This document shows positions 4,962 through 12,691 of a DNA stretch of 15,092 nt, one piece after another. How positions within the stretch are numbered: position 1 is the stretch's first letter; every line of letters starts with the position of its first letter. The notes under the pieces were generated by a model. That model did no database searches. It was not told the origin of the DNA and saw nothing but the letters and a program-made list of their open reading frames with translations. This stretch comes from Phycisphaerae bacterium (GTDB taxonomy: Bacteria; Planctomycetota; Phycisphaerae; Sedimentisphaerales; Anaerobacaceae). The stretch is from contig DAOVNI010000010.1 of NCBI GenBank assembly GCA_030630315.1, forward strand, positions 1 through 15,092, given 5' to 3'. The translations under genes and the position numbers were made by a program.

Positions 4962-6206
4962 TTAAAGCGAACCTTCATAAACCCTGATACCATCCACAAC
5001 TTTGCAGATGTGAACGGCATATTTATCGGCAAACTCAGGGTGACTACGCGGATACGCTGTCTCAACTGCTTGTTGAACCGCTTCGACACTTTCAGCCCGA
5101 ACCAGTGCGCCCGATGCTCCCTTGTCACCACCGCCCAACATCCGCTCTCCTAAAACACCCGGCACCGTCCGAACAACATCACACATTGTCTCCAGTTCCG
5201 CCCCTGATATCTTATAATCATCTCGCAGCCCTATGCCGTCTTCCCTGAATATCTGACCCACCGTTTCAATGTCCCCGGCCTTCCAGGCTTCGAGCATTTT
5301 ATAGAACTGATTTTGCGCTCCAAAAATATACTTTAGCCGGTCGCACAAATCAGCGTAACTCTCACCGAATTCGGCCATAATCTTTTCATAGATTGCCTCG
5401 TCCTTTATATCCGCAAGGCACGATATATCGTAATTGGCTTTCTGTAATATCGAAACTAACTTCTCGCATTCTGCCCTGCGTATTTTATACGTTGACTTCT
5501 CAAGACCAGGCCGAACCGTCCCCGTATCAAGCACCACTATCCGAAAATCGGTGGCACCCGACCCAAGTTGGACGTAATCTACAGACCTCTTTGCCGGGTT
5601 ATAATAGGTCCCCATACCTTCTCGCCCGAACAATATCATAATCTGGTCGAGCTTCCCGCAGGGTGAGCCAATATAGTCGTTTTCGACGGCCTGGGCCAGA
5701 TCGACGACCGTCATCTTGTCTTCTATCTCGATGCCGTTCGCATCCAGCAGTGATAAAATCAAATTCAAGCTCAAAGACGCCGACCGGCTCATCCCGCCGC
5801 CGGGAATGTTCCCAAAGATAACACCGTCAATGCCTTGTGAAAGTGTGTAACCCTCTCTCCTTAAAATATACTCAACTCCATACGGAAAGCGCCCCCACGT
5901 CTCCGCTATAGTATCTGACTTCGGCTCAGGAACATCTCCTAACTTGAATTCAATAACCCCATCGTCCGGAAAATTTCCACTAAACAGTCTGACGCGATTT
6001 GTCCCATTCGGCTTATAGGCCAGCCAGATAAACCTGTCTGTTGCTACCCCGAACAGCTCAGTCCCGTTATAATCACCATGTTCAACGCCAAGACAGAAAC
6101 GAGATGACGTCCTTCTTATCTTCCCATCTTTGATGTTAATCCTGTTATCTTGGGACAATTGCAGGATTTTATCAATGGCTGCCTGGTCCTGGGCCGTTAG
6201 TTCCAT
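4962..6206 (-). CDS. GHMP-family sugar kinase, galactokinase-like
   Basis: 414 aa, close to typical galactokinase length. The three GHMP/galactokinase signatures are present but altered. Motif 1 is SRFCLGVEHGDYNG (35-48), keeping Arg36, Glu42, His43 and Asp45 at galactokinase spacing, with Gly where the family has Thr in EHTDYNG. Motif 2 is GGGMSRSASL (136-145), where galactokinases have GLSSSA. The catalytic-base region is CGKLDQIM (183-190) with Asp187. Motif 3 is GGGDKGASGAL (358-368), where galactokinases have GGGFGG. The likely reaction is ATP-dependent 1-phosphorylation of galactose or a close relative (galacturonate, arabinose, GalNAc); the altered motifs make the substrate uncertain, so no symbol is given. 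It follows the symporter by 70 bases, supporting a role in phosphorylating the imported sugar. Confidence 0.82.
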   Translation of the reverse strand: MELTAQDQAAIDKILQLSQDNRINIKDGKIRRTSSRFCLGVEHGDYNGTELFGVATDRFIWLAYKPNGTNRVRLFSGNFPDDGVIEFKLGDVPEPKSDTIAETWGRFPYGVEYILRREGYTLSQGIDGVIFGNIPGGGMSRSASLSLNLILSLLDANGIEIEDKMTVVDLAQAVENDYIGSPCGKLDQIMILFGREGMGTYYNPAKRSVDYVQLGSGATDFRIVVLDTGTVRPGLEKSTYKIRRAECEKLVSILQKANYDISCLADIKDEAIYEKIMAEFGESYADLCDRLKYIFGAQNQFYKMLEAWKAGDIETVGQIFREDGIGLRDDYKISGAELETMCDVVRTVPGVLGERMLGGGDKGASGALVRAESVEAVQQAVETAYPRSHPEFADKYAVHICKVVDGIRVYEGSL

Positions 6207-6276
6207 TTTCTAAAAACCCTTCATCAATCTAAAACACCTCAAAACGTTATCAACTCTTCTGCTCCATTACCATTCA

Positions 6277-7887
6277 TTACCAGAAGATGATGTAAAGACC
6301 GATGGTTACTGCTATCACTATTGCGCCTAACCACATAACCGATGGCGCCGGCCTCATATCAAACTCCTCTCGTACCGGCATGACTTTCGGCTCTGCAAGT
6401 GGCTTAAGTTTCGTGATAATTGCCATCGTAGCAATAATTATAATAAACGTAATTGCCATCCTGTTCAAAAACGCAATTTCACTAAACTGCCAATGCAAAA
6501 ATCCATAAACCGGAACGCTAAGAACCAGCCCAATCACGCCGCTCATCGGCGGGGCTTTCTTGAAAATCATACCGAACACAAACACCCCAAGTATCCCCGG
6601 CGAAATATAACCCTGGAACTCCTGGATGTACGTGAAGATGCCCATAAATCTCGGGTCTCCTAACATCGGCGCTATCAACATCCCGATAACCACGAACACA
6701 CCGGTCGCAATCCGGCCAGTCCATATAAGGCTCCTGTCCGACGCATCTTTCCTCAAGTGGCGCTTGACCAAATCCATAGTAAATATCGTCGAGGCTGAGT
6801 TCAGCATCGACGCTAATGAGCTTATTACCGCACCGCTGATGGCCGCGAATATAAACGCCCTTGCTCCCGGCCCTACAAGATGCCTTATCAAAAGTGGATA
6901 TGCCGCATCCGTCCCGCTATCGCCGGTCATCTTGTCACCAAAAAGCTGAAGGGACATAATACCTGGAAAGATGATGATAAACGGAATAATCAACTTTAAA
7001 GCCGCCGCAAAAATAACACCGAGCTGGCCTTGCTTGAGGGTCTTGGCAGCTAACGTTCTCTGGCAAATATACTGATTCAGACCCCAGTAGTAAAAGTTCG
7101 GTATCCAAAGACCAATAACCAGAGCCGTCCAGGGCAGCACTGAGTGGTCTTTGGGAAGTATCATATGCAGCTTGTCGGCGTTCTTTTCGCTGAACAATTG
7201 TATCCCATTTGATAGCGTACTGAATATACCGGCCCCGGCTTCAGTCGATGGATGTAGCTTGCCTATCGCAATAAAACCCAGGACCATCGTTATCGCGCCC
7301 CCGATTATCAGGGCCGAGCCCTGAAAAAGGTCCGCCCAGGCCACCGCCTTTAATCCACCCCAGATAGTGTATAGTCCTGCTATGCCTCCTATGACCAGGA
7401 TCCCATACAATAGATGTCTTGGATTGTCCAAGTCTCCAAATATTGTCTGTAGCGTCAGACCGCCGGAATAAATGACCGCCGCAATTGTAACCCCGATGTA
7501 TATCACCATTGTATAAAAGGCCATAATCGCTCGCGCCGCTGGATTGTAGCGATATTCCAGATACTCCGGAATTGTAAATATTCCGCTTCGTAGAAACCTC
7601 GGTAAGAAAAAAATGGCAACAAAAACCAACGTAATTGCCGCCATCCACTCGTAGCTTGCTATCGCCATCCCTGCGATACCGGCACCCTGGCCCGCCATTC
7701 CGACAAAGTGCTCGGTCGAAATATTCGCCGCTATCAGCGAAAGACCAATCAAAGGCCACACAAGACCGCGGCTGGCCAGGAAGAAATCCTCACTGGTTTC
7801 TTCTTTTCGGCTCTTGTACATGCTCACCCCGATTACTACGCCGAAAAATGCCAGAAATACGCTAACATCAAGCCAGCTTAGCTCCAT
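6277..7887 (-). CDS. Sodium/sugar symporter of the SSS family, vSGLT-like
   Basis: 536 aa with about 14 hydrophobic segments; an inner-membrane Na+-driven sugar importer. It resembles Vibrio parahaemolyticus vSGLT over long stretches: SLIAANIS (50-57), IASYEWMAAITL (76-87), GLNQYICQRTLAAK (269-282), ISSLASMLNSASTIFTMD (355-372), YIQEFQGYISPGIL (420-433). Comparison from memory with vSGLT galactose ligands gives N55 (vSGLT N64), E80 (E88), N271 (N260), K298 (K294) and Q422 (Q428) conserved, but H60 in place of Q69. The Na+-site serines S356/S357 match S364/S365. It is the first gene of the minus-strand run, preceded by a 424-base divergent region. Galactose or a related sugar is the most likely substrate given the kinase after it. 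Confidence 0.93.
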   Translation of the reverse strand: MELSWLDVSVFLAFFGVVIGVSMYKSRKEETSEDFFLASRGLVWPLIGLSLIAANISTEHFVGMAGQGAGIAGMAIASYEWMAAITLVFVAIFFLPRFLRSGIFTIPEYLEYRYNPAARAIMAFYTMVIYIGVTIAAVIYSGGLTLQTIFGDLDNPRHLLYGILVIGGIAGLYTIWGGLKAVAWADLFQGSALIIGGAITMVLGFIAIGKLHPSTEAGAGIFSTLSNGIQLFSEKNADKLHMILPKDHSVLPWTALVIGLWIPNFYYWGLNQYICQRTLAAKTLKQGQLGVIFAAALKLIIPFIIIFPGIMSLQLFGDKMTGDSGTDAAYPLLIRHLVGPGARAFIFAAISGAVISSLASMLNSASTIFTMDLVKRHLRKDASDRSLIWTGRIATGVFVVIGMLIAPMLGDPRFMGIFTYIQEFQGYISPGILGVFVFGMIFKKAPPMSGVIGLVLSVPVYGFLHWQFSEIAFLNRMAITFIIIIATMAIITKLKPLAEPKVMPVREEFDMRPAPSVMWLGAIVIAVTIGLYIIFW

Positions 7888-8029: not shown

Positions 8030-8151
8030 CAAAATAGAAACCTAAGGCGGAAATCCCCGAAAAATACCGTCAAATATCCGGCCTAATGGTTCAGATTGTC
8101 GAATTAAGTGCCACTGCTGATTGTCCGATATAACAACTGCCTGTATAGAAG

Positions 8152-8175
8152 CGAATGTCCCGTTAGAGACATTCG
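8152..8175. promoter_or_regulatory. Perfect spaced dyad, possible operator
   Basis: CGAATGTC (8152-8159) and GACATTCG (8168-8175) are exact reverse complements separated by 8 bases. The dyad lies in the divergent region about 120 bases upstream of the candidate symporter -35 and about 136 bases before the plus-strand gene. It is not followed by a T-run, so a terminator is unlikely; a binding site for a dimeric regulator is a reasonable guess. Confidence 0.4.
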
Positions 8176-8337
8176 TCACGCCCTTTTGCTGACAAAAATA
8201 ATGTATTGCGAGCTCCAAAATCAGGAATAGCCCTATATTATTGTTGTTCAGCTTTACCGATATCAGCAAATACAGGTAGAGAAATATTAACGGGGGGATT
8301 GGAAGCTATTAGTGGCTGAAAATCTTCCGATAACGGT

Positions 8338-8363
8338 GGGGGGTGGGCCCAGGGGGGCGGGGG
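8338..8363 (+). other. Potential G-quadruplex in the 5' coding region
   Basis: Four G-runs on the coding strand (G6 at 8338-8343, G3 at 8345-8347, G6 at 8352-8357, G5 at 8359-8363) have loops of 1, 4 and 1 bases, satisfying the G3+N1-7 pattern. They lie about 26 bases inside the start of the cysteine-cluster gene and encode its Gly-rich stretch. Confidence 0.5.
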
Positions 8364-8737
8364 ACAGTTCCGGCAGCGACACAAAGATTATCGATCTTGA
8401 GCTCGATATTCTCGGCAAAGAGGTGAATCTTCGTATTGGCGTTCGGCAGGGACAAGCACGTCTGGCAGATATTGTGCCGTTGGCACAGGTGGTTTGCACA
8501 AAAATTACCGATGCGGTACTCGAAAGGATACGCAGCGATGGAGGCCGCATTCCTTGTCGCAAAGGCTGCTCAGCTTGTTGTAGTTCTCTTGTGCCGCTGT
8601 CGGTTCCGGAAACACTTCGGCTGAGGGAGGCGATTCTTGCAATGCCTGAATCTCAGCGCAGGCTGGTGCAGCAATCCTGTCTTTTGGTCGCGCAGCCCAT
8701 CTTGAAACGAAAACCACCAAAGTCATTTGTAGGCCAA

Positions 8738-8745
8738 ACAACAGG
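8738..8745. repeat. 8-bp target-site duplication, left copy
   Basis: ACAACAGG lies directly before the element's GTAACC end and is repeated exactly at 11079-11086. An 8-bp duplication is the hallmark of IS66-family transposition, and the perfect match implies a fairly recent insertion. Confidence 0.93.
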
Positions 8746-8820
8746 GTAACCGTTCACGGGTATTTTGAACGCATCGGGCAACGCGCCCGGTTGCAAAACG
8801 TCAATTCTCGCTGATTATAC
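8746..8820 (+). repeat. Outer left end (L1) of the element, with hairpin and promoter-like boxes
   Basis: It starts with GTAACCGTTCA and matches L2 (10518-10594) almost perfectly for about 43 bases, more loosely to about 75. It includes a stem-loop at about 8772-8790 (CGGGC and GCCCG arms, loop AACGC) and promoter-like TTGCAA (8791-8796), 18 bases, TTATAC (8815-8820). Confidence 0.85.
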
Positions 8821-8849
8821 TCGTTTACGGCCCTTTCGTTTTTAGCTGT

Positions 8850-10484
8850 TCAGCAACAGTGACAGAAATGAGGCTTGTCGTCGTTCATCGACAGTATCGG
8901 TGCCCCCGGCTCGCCCGGAGCCTTCACTCGCACAACGGGACTGATCTTGACGCCGGCCAGTTGCCCGAAGGCGTCGAAACGCTCGCGCATGTCGCCGAGG
9001 ACGTAACTGCTGTGGAACCGAAGTCTCTGGCCTGGGCGGTAGGTATGGGTATCCCAGTCATCCAGCCCATCCACTTTCAACTCAACCGCCGTTCGGCACA
9101 GGAAGGCGGGCGGTTGGGCAATATTCGACACCACGCTGCCCGTTCCCACGGCATATTCCCTATTGTATCTCATGGTCAGCGGCGTAATGAACGTCACTTT
9201 CTCACCCTCCGGCCAGAAAACTTGGGGCACGCAAGCCGGTCGCCCATGGAAATCTCGCAATTGGAACGGCGCTCGATACTCGTCCTTAGGTCCACGGAGT
9301 TTCGTGGGCGAATAGCAATGGGAGATGACCATCGTGTTCGTGGCGGTGAGGTGTCCGCAGTTTCCCATCACCGACGGCCGTCCGCATATCATGTGCGATA
9401 CCAGGTTTGCCACGCAGAAGTCCGGGTCTCCTTCGCAAGTTCCCGCGAACCCTTCGTCGTTCAGGCGTGATATCGCCACGCAGGCCGGTCCCGGATCGCC
9501 CGGGGCCCCAATGCAGGCGGAGCCGCTGACGACGACGCCCTGGCAATTGTTCTTCCGAATCAGATCTCGCAAGACGACGTAGTGCTTTACCGCGTTGAGG
9601 ATCGCCTTTTTCTCCGGCTCAATAACTTTCTTGGCGGTCTTTTCATAAAAGTCGGCCAACTGCCGCATCTCGTCGCTCGCTTCGTACTCGTGGTAGATCG
9701 CAAGGTAGTCAGGGAAATTAACGAATCCCGGCCCCAGCAGGTGATTGCTGCTGACATCATGGATGCGATTCACTTCATAGACTTCTCTGGGTTTTGGTGA
9801 GGCATACACCAATTTCGCCTGCTTCAGCCGCTGGGGAGCGCTCACCAGCCGCAGGGACGTTTCCAGCCAGCTTACGTCCGGTGCCGTGCACGTATAGGTG
9901 TAGGCCTTGCCGTAGCGAACGGGAGGTCCCCGATGGTGCTCTATATTGGGCAGATTGAAGAAGACCACGGTTGGAATATCGCCGCGGCCGTCAACGATCG
10001 CCTGGAATGGATTCCACCATGTTCCCCGAGACAACTGGTCGTTCCAGTTCCAGGTATGAAGCGTGTGGCCAGTGAGAATCAGTCCCGCCGGCGGCGTTTT
10101 CTTCAGGCTTTCCAGCAAACCGGCGACCTCCGCGTCCGTGGTCACGGGATTGCGGAATCGTACTTTGACGCCAATCTCCTTGGCAGCCTTCTCCAATATC
10201 TCCTTGTAGAGATTCCGCTGATAGTTGTACGTATCTTTGCCGTATCCCCAGTCCATTCTCCCCATCTTCGCGTGGCCCTTGGGCCAGATTGACACTACGT
10301 CCACCACTGGCTTCACGGTGGTGGGACCGTCAGCCGGGATCGATTCGGCGGCAAAACACAGCATGTCGTCGAGCAGTTGCGATCCCACGACCGCGCCTGC
10401 CGCCACACCGGCGGTCCTGAGGAACCCACGTCGGCTGATCCCACTCGCACCATGACGGCCCTCGAAGTTTTCTTGACTGCCCAT
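8850..10484 (-). CDS. Tat-exported L-fucose/arabinose isomerase-like protein, cargo of the IS element
   Basis: 544 aa. AGGAG lies just upstream of ATG 10484. SRRGFLR (17-23) followed by a hydrophobic Ala/Gly/Val stretch is a Tat signal, so a folded, probably metal-bearing protein would be exported. Residues 60-180 read like the Rossmann-type N-terminal domain of fucose/arabinose isomerases (VVDVVSIWPKGH, GLILTGHTLHTWNW). The C-terminal domain has TCEGDPDFCVANLVSHMICGRP (349-370 region), NCGHLTATNTMVISHC (375-390) and a beta-rich tail, echoing the family's CEGD...GRP...HC pattern. The aspartate expected near the GRP-xxxGD position appears replaced (GNCG, 374-377), so sugar isomerase activity is uncertain. 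The last six residues are HFCHCC, an unusual possible metal site. It looks more GC-rich than the surrounding host genes. It lies between two left ends of the element. Confidence 0.85.
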   Translation of the reverse strand: MGSQENFEGRHGASGISRRGFLRTAGVAAGAVVGSQLLDDMLCFAAESIPADGPTTVKPVVDVVSIWPKGHAKMGRMDWGYGKDTYNYQRNLYKEILEKAAKEIGVKVRFRNPVTTDAEVAGLLESLKKTPPAGLILTGHTLHTWNWNDQLSRGTWWNPFQAIVDGRGDIPTVVFFNLPNIEHHRGPPVRYGKAYTYTCTAPDVSWLETSLRLVSAPQRLKQAKLVYASPKPREVYEVNRIHDVSSNHLLGPGFVNFPDYLAIYHEYEASDEMRQLADFYEKTAKKVIEPEKKAILNAVKHYVVLRDLIRKNNCQGVVVSGSACIGAPGDPGPACVAISRLNDEGFAGTCEGDPDFCVANLVSHMICGRPSVMGNCGHLTATNTMVISHCYSPTKLRGPKDEYRAPFQLRDFHGRPACVPQVFWPEGEKVTFITPLTMRYNREYAVGTGSVVSNIAQPPAFLCRTAVELKVDGLDDWDTHTYRPGQRLRFHSSYVLGDMRERFDAFGQLAGVKISPVVRVKAPGEPGAPILSMNDDKPHFCHCC

Positions 10485-10517
10485 CTTTCATCTCCTTTCC
10501 GCATCTGTTTTAGCGGA

Positions 10518-10594
10518 GTAACCGTTCACGGGTATTTTGAACGCATTGGGCAACGCGCCCAATGTTGAAATACTCAAGTTTCCTTTTATTATAC
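10518..10594 (+). repeat. Inner left end (L2) of the IS66-type relic
   Basis: GTAACCGTTCA at 10518-10528 and a following sequence almost identical to L1. The stem-loop arms are CATTGGGC and GCCCAATG around AACGC (about 10544-10564). The stem differs from L1 by a T-to-C and the matching A-to-G change, preserving pairing. L2 with the right end at 11078 would delimit a 561-bp internally deleted IS copy. Confidence 0.85.
10565..10594 (+). promoter_or_regulatory. Promoter-like boxes in L2, reading both ways
   Basis: Plus strand: TTGAAA (10565-10570), 18 bases, TTATAC (10589-10594), conserved in layout with L1 and placed to drive the transposase. Minus strand: a perfect TATAAT (10593-10588) points at the cargo gene, but its -35 is weak. 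The minus-strand transcript would carry the L2 hairpin in its leader. Confidence 0.35.
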
Positions 10595-10691
10595 ACTATA
10601 TCTCAAACTGTCAGTAAATTCAAATTATTTTTTTTCATGCGATTGGCCTCGTTCGCTTGATAATAACCATTATAAATATTGAGAGTAAAAA

Positions 10692-11061
10692 TTGACATCT
10701 AAACGAGAACAATTCTATAAGCGACGCATCGCAGAACTTGAAAAGCAAGTTGCCGCCGAAGTCGGCTGCGATTTCTAAACGCTTTCGCAAGCATGGAGAT
10801 GCGATGTTTCGGTTCCTGTTTGATAGTGCTGTGCCTCCAACTAACAACGCCGCTGAGCAGAGCCTTCGCCAGTCGATTATTGACCGACGGATTACACAGG
10901 GCAGCCGCTCCTTGACGGGCCGACAATGGAATGCGCGTATCTGGACGGTCCTGGCTACCTGCCGAAAGCAAGGCCGATCCAGTTGGCAATTCCTCCAAAA
11001 CGCCCTGTCTGCCCATTATTTCCAAACTCCTACTCCGTCGCTTCTACCTCAAATCAACTGA
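10692..11061 (+). pseudogene. IS66-type transposase, internally deleted remnant
   Basis: From TTG 10692 the frame reads TSKREQFYKRRIAELEKQVA, like the N-terminal coiled coil of IS66 TnpC/ISBst12-type transposases, then hits TAA after 15 codons. A second frame through 11061 reads RFRKHGDAMFRFLFDSAVPP, then TNNAAEQSLR, IIDRRITQGSRS and IWTVLATC, the family's C-terminal end with the presumed catalytic Glu in NNAAEQ. Normal length is about 450-530 aa, so some 300-400 codons in the middle, including the two catalytic Asp residues, are gone and the join is out of frame. It cannot be active. Confidence 0.87.
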
Positions 11062-11067
11062 AAGGTC

Positions 11068-11078
11068 TGAACGGTTAC
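11068..11078 (-). repeat. Right terminal inverted repeat of the element
   Basis: TGAACGGTTAC is the exact reverse complement of the first 11 bases of L1 and L2. Similarity to the left ends stops after this; no hairpin like that of L1/L2 is seen inside the right end. Confidence 0.9.
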
Positions 11079-11086
11079 ACAACAGG
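11079..11086. repeat. 8-bp target-site duplication, right copy
   Basis: ACAACAGG, identical to 8738-8745, directly after the right end. Confidence 0.93.
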
Positions 11087-11498
11087 AGCATCACCTGGCA
11101 GTCTCGCCGAGTGGAATATGGTAGCGAGCTGGTACACGAATCTGAAGCTTGCCTGTCCTTTCCACTACAAAGGCATCTGTACTATTTATGAGCAGAGGCC
11201 GCTGGCGTGCAGAGAGCATTTTGTAAAGGGTTCTGCCAGGGCCTGCAGAGGCGGACGCGGCACGGCAGAAGTGGTTCAGATGCCGGTACAAATGGTGGAT
11301 GCTCTTGCCCAGTTGGCGAGCGAGCTTGAGGGTACCGGCGTTGAGGCAGTGATGATGCCGTTGGTGCTGGTCTGGTACGAGGAAAATCCGAGGCGTGGCA
11401 GGTGGACCTGGCCTGCGGCGATGATGGCCCAGCGCTTTGTTGAGATTGTAAGGAAAATGGCGTCGAAAAATTCTACCGCAGTCGTTACGCAAACTTAG
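11087..11498 (+). pseudogene. YkgJ-type cysteine-cluster protein, 3' part
   Basis: Continuation of the gene begun at 8312. With the element and one duplication copy removed, the split codon GG|A reads Gly and the frame continues as ASPGSLAEWNMVASWYTNLK, then CPFHYKGICTIYEQRPLACR, the second cysteine group typical of YkgJ proteins, to a TAG at 11498. About 136 codons plus stop. The conserved motif and lack of stops show the gene was intact before insertion. It converges on lexA with a 40-base gap in which no clear terminator was seen. Confidence 0.88.
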
Positions 11499-11538
11499 CG
11501 AGAGCAGCAGATAATAGGCCACACACTATAAATCCGGA

Positions 11539-12198
11539 TTAAAATTTTCTTACCAATCCAATCACAACGCCCTCGATTCGGCAGTTGTCCGAATAAATTG
11601 GGTCGTAATCCGCATTCGCCGGCTCCAATCGAACTTGCGTCTTTTCCTTGTGGAATCTTTTTAGCGTTGCGTTTTCATTATCCACGATGGCAATAACCAG
11701 TTGGCCGTTGTTAGCTACGGGGGTGCGTCGGCAAATCACATAATCGCCGCTGCGAATATCGTCGTCAACCATACTGTCACCTCTCACCTCAAGGGCGAAT
11801 GTGTTATCATCTGCTGCGAAATGAGAGCTAAGGGACAGGAGCTCAATGTTTTCAATGGCCTCTATGGGTGAGCCGGCAGCAACTCTACCTACGAGCGGTA
11901 TTCCCAGGGGCGGCTGATAATAGGAGTCTGAGCCGTGGTTGGCCAGGCGGTTAAGCAATTCTTGCGCTTTTGAAGTTGGTTTCAAAGAGCGTGCCCTGCC
12001 CGCCGAAGCTGAGAGCAGACCTTTTTTTCGCAGCTCGCCGATATGCTCGAATACCGTGCTTCGGCTTATGCCCAGTTCGCACGCTAATTCGCCAATCGTC
12101 GGAGAATAGCATCGGCTCGCCTGAAAACCGGCTATCGTTTTTAATAACTGCAGTTGACGCGGGGTAAGCTGATTTATGGGCTTTGCTTTCAACGCCAT
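11539..12198 (-). CDS. lexA: LexA SOS repressor (self-cleaving)
   Basis: 219 aa. Residues 10-70 are the winged-helix DNA-binding domain (LTPRQLQLLKTIAGF; helix-turn-helix at SPTIGELACELGISRSTVFEHI, 32-53). A linker leads to the S24 peptidase-type domain: cleavage site Ala108-Gly109 in GRVAAGSP, catalytic Ser142 in RGDSMVDD, catalytic Lys180 in ATLKRF. RecA-stimulated self-cleavage would derepress DNA-damage genes. AAGGAG lies about 10 bases before the ATG, a slightly long spacing. No copy of the usual proteobacterial or Gram-positive LexA box was recognised upstream, so the operator here may differ. Confidence 0.95.
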   Translation of the reverse strand: MALKAKPINQLTPRQLQLLKTIAGFQASRCYSPTIGELACELGISRSTVFEHIGELRKKGLLSASAGRARSLKPTSKAQELLNRLANHGSDSYYQPPLGIPLVGRVAAGSPIEAIENIELLSLSSHFAADDNTFALEVRGDSMVDDDIRSGDYVICRRTPVANNGQLVIAIVDNENATLKRFHKEKTQVRLEPANADYDPIYSDNCRIEGVVIGLVRKF

Positions 12199-12691
12199 AT
12201 TCTAAGTTCTCCTTTGAAGCAGTATTGAGTTCTGAGCCAAGCAGGGTGCTTATTATTTCGCTTAGCGAAGTCAGCAGCTTGGTCAGACGATTCGTTGAGG
12301 GCCGGCGTGACTGTTGCGGTTCGCCCGGCCAAACAGAGACAAAATCCCCCCCAGGTCCGAATTTGCATACTGGCTCAATTTGGTTGTCTAAACGGCTTTC
12401 CATTTTTTCCCAATCCGTGCATCCCGACAATCGTTCGAGTTACAGAGTTTCGATAGTGCAGCAGCAAATACTTCTATCGGTAATGTGTGGTTAAAAACCC
12501 TAACAAAAACCGAACAAAAATCGGCGAAGTGAAATTTTTTTTCAGCCCCTCAACTTCTTGTTTGATACCGGCGATAATATAGGACGATTAGAACACTGGG
12601 AGAGTTGCTTGCTAAAACATCATCGAGAATTCGAAACAGAAACCTGAAAATTCAAGGCGGGTTCCATAATGCAACATTTCTAAAAGAATGT
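12199..12691 (-). other. 493-bp region between nnrD and lexA
   Basis: An open minus-strand frame at 12430-12199 continues 247 bases into lexA in another frame and matches nothing recognised. The region probably holds the lexA promoter and operator; TATTAT-like boxes occur near 12575, but no convincing pair was found. A short imperfect dyad CCGA-N7-TCGG (12510-12524) is the only palindrome noticed. Confidence 0.4.

Follow-up and report, generated by a model that had tools for sequence, protein, structure and literature searches.

A probable IS66-family cargo unit that carries an intact Tat-protein gene, with a promoter-like site in its internal left end, in a Phycisphaerae bacterium

In the 15,092-bp stretch of DNA analysed here (the window), which is contig C260 of the draft assembly G000 (1.81 Mb in 317 contigs, 69.4% complete), a 2,333-bp block is a single insertion into a host gene that entered through its two outermost ends, L1 and R. 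As summarized in Table 1, the block contains, in this order, the outer left end L1, an intact gene for a predicted Tat-exported protein, an inner left end L2, a relic of an IS66 transposase that has suffered an internal deletion, and the right end R. The block is probably a non-autonomous IS66-family cargo unit that has its own expression signal. According to the model that we propose, two copies of one IS subtype would have flanked an acquired gene; the outer copy would then have shrunk to its 46-bp end and the inner copy would have lost the core of its transposase, after which TnpC supplied in trans may have used L1 and R to move the block to its present position with the gene aboard. To judge from the pattern seen across the family of left ends, L2 probably drives the cargo gene by means of an outward promoter and a hairpin leader.

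Table 1. Coordinates in the window of the inserted block, its components and the interrupted gene.
Feature	Position	Strand	Remark
Inserted block, 2,333 bp	8746-11078		bounded by GTAACCGTTCA/TGAACGGTTAC
Target duplication ACAACAGG, left copy	8738-8745		single copy (ACAGCAGG) in the empty site of G001
Target duplication ACAACAGG, right copy	11079-11086
5′ part of interrupted CxxCxxCC (PF03692) gene	8312-8745	+
3′ part of interrupted CxxCxxCC (PF03692) gene	11087-11498	+	frame intact without the block and one target copy
Outer left end L1	8746-8791	+	46 bp; terminal repeat and hairpin, promoter part missing
Cargo: intact gene of a 544-codon, predicted Tat-exported protein	8850-10484	-	TIGR01409 twin-arginine signal
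Cargo ribosome-binding site GGAGATG	10489-10495	-	four bases before the ATG
Inner left end L2, up to and including the promoter-like site	10518-10623	+	without target duplication
Leader hairpin of L2	10544-10564		stem covaries across the left-end family
Outward promoter-like site TTGAAT-17-TATAGT, reading into the cargo gene	10595-10623	-	9/12; alternative -10 TATAAT at 10593-10588
Relic of IS66 TnpC: 5′ codons fused to C-terminal part by internal deletion	10692-11061	+
Right end R	11068-11078	-

The 11-bp inverted repeats, the transposase relic and the intact Tat-protein gene with its ribosome-binding site, which had been described in a first-pass annotation of this DNA, are all present. Exact copies of GTAACCGTTCA occur in the window at 8746-8756 (+), 10518-10528 (+) and 11068-11078 (-). 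When two or fewer mismatches are allowed, this 11-mer is not rarer in the window than chance would have it (4 seen, 3.16 expected), and in our judgement it is the three exact copies, the 43-bp match between the left ends and the duplication taken together that go beyond chance. In the whole assembly the exact 11-mer is found six times, three times in the block and three times on contig C93, and a reversed control is not found.

The block splits the gene of a CxxCxxCC protein and lies between two copies of ACAACAGG. Of the "perfect 8-bp duplications" of the first-pass annotation, one pair stands, around L1 and R; L2 has none, because the sequence preceding it, TTAGCGGA, differs at five of eight positions from that following R. 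The corresponding empty site is found in G001, a genome of the same genus, in which the counterparts of window positions 8061-8746 and 11079-12590 (89-90% identity) adjoin each other and the target, ACAGCAGG, is present once. A Tat gene at this same place without IS ends, which that annotation had held would speak against its reading, was looked for in G001, in which the target gene is intact in the same neighborhood and the empty site contains neither a Tat gene nor IS ends; at two or fewer mismatches, G001 has no match to the left end anywhere in its genome. For each of the nine relatives aligned (G001 and eight further), the alignment with the joined CxxCxxCC protein covers at least 265 residues and has no more than one gap position, and some match to this protein is found in 35 of 99 genomes (G000 included). 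Because the draft is fragmented, it could be supposed that an assembly artefact has joined unrelated contigs; this is very improbable, however, since contigs joined in error would not be expected to show a perfect 8-bp duplication, to keep the reading frame intact across the site and to be syntenic with G001 on either side.

The assignment to the IS66 family made earlier agrees with the 8-bp duplication and with the relic, the C-terminal portion of which (10738-11061) matches PF03050 at 34.4 bits, above the cut-off of 23.1; against NF033517 (NCBIfam) the relic scores 77.8 bits, below the cut-off of 180. At the deletion junction, relic bases 236 and 260 correspond to bases 232 and 1257 of a full-length element, L088. 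This element of 1,557 bp has no matching duplication and contains one transposase gene of 1,371 bp (456 codons), whose product is 86% identical to the relic across 105 C-terminal residues, and a second full-length element, L099 (1,647 bp), has a perfect duplication and one transposase gene of 1,440 bp (479 codons); the transposases of the full-length relatives match DDE_Tnp_IS66 (E 1.2e-41 and 3.1e-35). The first-pass annotation had proposed to look for a full-length transposase with the same ends; complete relatives of the transposase are found in other genera, and the search of the 69%-complete assembly itself gave three C-terminal fragments and no full-length transposase. Since relatives with a complete transposase occur in other genera, mobilization in trans is plausible.

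Among 198 related genomes (G000 included), the 23-bp left end has 81 matches with two or fewer mismatches, in 32 genomes, and a relative of the transposase at E 1e-25 is present in 33. The 8-bp target duplication of the lineage is perfect in the window, in L099 and in the short derivative L058 (389 bp), and agrees at seven of eight positions in another short derivative, L072 (790 bp); a matching duplication is absent in L088, L074 and both left ends on C93. The full-length elements L088 and L099 leave no room for tnpA and tnpB beside tnpC, an argument that rests on element lengths because the ORF lists had a floor of 150 amino acids; these lengths fit the transposase-only branch of the IS66 family. 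No exact match to the 23-mer was found in viral contigs, and no match to the IS on plasmids.

The cargo gene looks foreign. Its GC content is 58.3% and its GC3 is 70.5%, compared with a GC3 of 50-59% in eight other genes of the window, and the protein is 81% identical across all 544 residues to the product of a gene in the Pirellulaceae MAG BS150m-G36 (L145). The similarity of the DNA to this gene covers window positions 8849-10476, in effect the coding sequence alone, and no exact or one-mismatch IS end is present in the 9.9 kb examined that contain the Pirellulaceae copy. Upstream of that copy are a 549-codon Tat gene and a gene which, from our reading of its translation, we take to be a relative of uroporphyrinogen decarboxylase. 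Between the two copies dN is 0.108 and dS is 0.436: the cargo protein is under constraint. Among the matches listed for the 198 relatives (G000 included), in searches that scored a limited number of candidates per genome, none exceeds 39%, and some match is found in 60 of them; among 392 genomes of the phylum (G000 included), searched in the same way, only two besides G000 reach E 1e-70, at 38-39%. Vertical inheritance of the Tat gene was considered and rejected, because no close relative is listed in either set.

The cargo protein had been called isomerase-like, a description that now appears weak. Its best match among PDB profiles is L-arabinose isomerase at E 0.0064, and PF24856 is found in 7 of 17 members of the cargo family and is absent in the cargo protein itself, so that the family is weakly related to L-arabinose isomerase. 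The predicted structure, made from an input of four sequences, has a mean pLDDT of 46.4 and is too poor for comparison of folds.

What the duplication demonstrates is the insertion of L1 and R at this site; carriage of the Tat gene in the same event is what we infer. The earlier notion of a mobilized cargo unit holds as far as the single insertion, the foreign-looking gene and the complete relatives that could act in trans are concerned, and carriage en bloc is probable. L1 and L2 have 43 bp in common with one mismatch, and L1 has no closer match than L2 in the 65 other left ends. L1 has kept its hairpin and lost the promoter (outward promoter score, 6/12). Two copies, decay of both and subsequent movement in trans would be the most economical history.

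The alternative is that the unit was assembled in place, a deleted IS consisting of L1, the relic and R having arrived first and the Tat gene and L2 having been added later through recombination between IS copies. The two relics of G000, compared over window positions 10518-11078 and L007 positions 1277-1843 (contig C93), are near-identical where they encode transposase, whereas their two ends have diverged. They are mosaic, with 83.7% identity in the left end, 66.2% in the leader, 82.5% in the right end and, for the transposase part, 100% and 95.5%, which suggests recombination or gene conversion between disabled copies. Because copies thus appear to recombine, later assembly in place would be possible, and the finding of the whole unit in a single copy in the assembly is in keeping with it. 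However, this course of events needs an extra illegitimate junction beside L1, and the difference between L1 and L2 is smaller than that between L1 and any other left end compared, in agreement with a gene flanked by two copies of the same subtype. Assembly in place is accordingly regarded as unlikely, and movement of an already formed unit as the preferred reading.

Contig C93 contains a second cluster, on the reverse strand of locus L007, which consists of a left end, a 5′ remnant of a transposase gene, a 330-codon Tat gene (aldo/keto reductase-like by our reading), a second left end, a 567-bp relic and a right end. The relic has the same internal deletion as that of the window, and since the two share this junction, it seems that an already deleted copy was duplicated to another site. 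Among the 198 genomes, with at most three candidates scored per genome, the 561-bp relic of the window is matched over its full length only twice, both times in G000. Further copies with the same or another cargo had been named in advance as support for a cargo unit: the layout recurs on C93 with another Tat gene between two left ends, and neither of these left ends forms a duplication with the right end. In G002, which belongs to the same genus, the nearest matching flanks of this stretch of approximately 4.2 kb are only 98 bp apart. Yet another Tat gene (515 codons from its ATG) has its first possible start at a distance of 10 bp from the outer left end on C93, and positions 5201-5450, after that gene, contain no end-like sequence with fewer than four mismatches.

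The 515-codon gene (L007:3693-5266) looks chimeric. From just before the ATG to approximately codon 44 its DNA is 88-89% identical to a native gene of the genus (G001, G002), and from residue 39 its protein is 82-88% identical to the products of genes in four other genomes of the family, which have different starts. The interval between the neighboring genes, which we take to be mnmG-like and acpS-like, is short in three genomes (G001, G003, G005) and longer in G002, with the greatest length in G000; it is a possible insertion hot spot.

For a wider search, 68 of 81 left ends were examined, namely those in 60 fetched regions and those on C260 and C93. Right ends with two or fewer mismatches were sought within 9 kb, 23 of the 68 left ends having less than 1,500 bp of inner sequence, and a second unit of the form L1-cargo-L2-R with a matching duplication was not found among them. 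The claim that the unit is spreading is consequently not borne out: the assembly holds one copy, and one of these 68 left ends belongs to a cargo unit with a perfect duplication. At L053 (295-3167, reverse strand), 2,872 bp separate a left end from a right end that has two mismatches, and the duplication is 6/8; this is a weak candidate for a cargo unit. At L070 of G122 (6078-6732), two left ends face each other 655 bp apart without a matching duplication, and on the outside each has a gene start no more than 30 bases away.

Two features of the left end, an outward promoter and a hairpin, had escaped the first-pass annotation and are new in the present analysis. Left ends of the lineage often bear, as judged from their sequences, an outward sigma70-like promoter and a covarying leader hairpin, the latter placed between the promoter and the end. 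The promoter was scanned for in the 60 left ends for which 135 bp of inner sequence were available. A match to 10 or more of its 12 bases was found outward in 18 and inward in one (shuffles, 2.7%), and a match to 9 or more outward in 24 and inward in seven (shuffles, 16%). G122 accounts for 10 of the 18 strong outward matches, in 10 of its 11 scanned left ends, five of them being exactly TTGACA-17-TATAAT; without G122 such a match is found in 8 of 49 left ends, still above the shuffles (binomial p 5e-5). The single inward match of 10/12 is that of the L2 of the window itself. The outward match of this L2 is modest and alone would not convince, since 16% of shuffles reach 9/12. With 21 left-end matches in its genome, G122 is well suited to a search for expression driven by the IS.

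The mean folding energy of the hairpin stretch in all 60 left ends is -15.4 kcal/mol, compared with -8.8 kcal/mol for base shuffles, although several do not fold in this way. For 35 left ends, chosen because they seemed to form a hairpin and because they differ from one another, pairing is seen in 97.1% of cells for the inner stem and in 75.4% for the outer stem, and one pair of the inner stem switches between G-C (19) and A-U (15). The covariation score of this set is 0.165 compared with 0.123 in shuffled alignments, and none of 500 shuffles is as high; the number of further pair types in the stem shows no excess (252 of 500 shuffles as high).

The position of the ends relative to genes was counted after loci that repeat a place or lack a usable end had been dropped. 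For 64 left ends, four with less than 600 bp of outer sequence being left out, the nearest outward gene is 5′-facing in 51 and 3′-facing in five, seven ends lie inside a gene and one has none; within 100 bp, 33 are 5′-facing and two 3′-facing. Counted by genome majority, 24 genomes are 5′-facing and three are not, with one tie. It is conceivable that insertion of the IS into upstream intergenic DNA is all that brings left ends close to gene starts, in which case L2 would not be the promoter of the cargo. This explanation could draw on the modest promoter score of L2 and on the behavior of the gene caller, which is crude and leans towards 5′-facing genes: at 1,500 random positions in the same loci the ratio is 609 to 261, and within 100 bp it is 367 to 56. 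In contrast, right ends do not show the bias (11 5′-facing, 14 3′-facing and three in genes for 28 of 29; three and five within 100 bp; Fisher p = 1.2e-5 against left ends, and 1.9e-4 without G000 and G122), and strong promoter matches point outward far more often than inward. Right ends, which were located via the transposase and so represent a wider set of elements, give 8 against 10 when only those with the exact 11-mer are used (p = 1e-4); those of L088 and L206 share an outer flank and are not independent.

Relative to random positions the bias of left ends remains (p = 3.7e-4; by genome majority, p 0.034), and right ends are below this baseline (p = 0.008). The share within 100 bp of a start is also greater for left ends (33/64 compared with 367/1,500, p = 6e-6), and the 5′-to-3′ ratio within that distance does not differ (33:2 compared with 367:56, p = 0.29). 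Insertion preference as the only cause is considered unlikely, and promoter activity of L2 remains the favored reading. Genes just downstream of left ends show a modest excess of products that look exported by a simple rule (26/34 compared with 116/224 control ORFs, p = 0.009).

More tentatively, the left end of this IS66 lineage might be a portable expression module, composed of an outward sigma70-type promoter and a structured leader, that, placed immediately upstream of gene starts and often of those of exported-protein genes, ties genes to itself and in this way turns neighbors into expressed mobile cargo, in which case the unit of the window and the cluster on C93 would be two of its products; we hold this to be possible rather than probable. 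Such a module would offer a testable route for the capture and switching-on of exported-protein genes in these bacteria, in which an IS end brings a promoter and a leader and the cargo stays attached to that end when it moves. If this is confirmed, genes that the IS has recently rewired could be located by means of left-end sequences.

The known systems with which the unit can be compared differ from it in distinct ways. Classical IS66 members have tnpA and tnpB beside tnpC, and ISBst12-like elements form a transposase-only branch of the family. The present lineage resembles this branch in its PF03050 transposase, 8-bp duplication and GTAA-type ends, and in the length of its two full-length relatives, which accommodates no more than a single transposase gene; the copy in the window differs in having no working transposase, a foreign-looking gene and a third, internal end, and left ends of the lineage differ in their frequent outward promoter and hairpin. 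In composite transposons a gene lies between two IS copies and is moved by the outermost ends. The gene in the window likewise lies between two IS copies, but neither copy is complete, the left one being 46 bp (L1) and the right one deleted to 561 bp. Mobile insertion cassettes such as MIC231 of the IS231 group have IS ends around a passenger gene and no working transposase, and are presumed to be mobilized in trans; the window unit likewise has IS ends around a passenger gene and no working transposase, and may be mobilized in trans, but it belongs to the IS66 family, retains a transposase relic and has a second left end inside it. ISEcp1 and ISAba1 are IS elements with outward promoters, one end of which supplies a promoter to a neighboring gene; unlike these, the present end belongs to the IS66 family, has a covarying stem-loop in its leader and is enclosed in a cargo unit. 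The best reading is that the unit in the window is an IS66 version of the known IS cargo units, the new feature of which is the promoter-bearing end.
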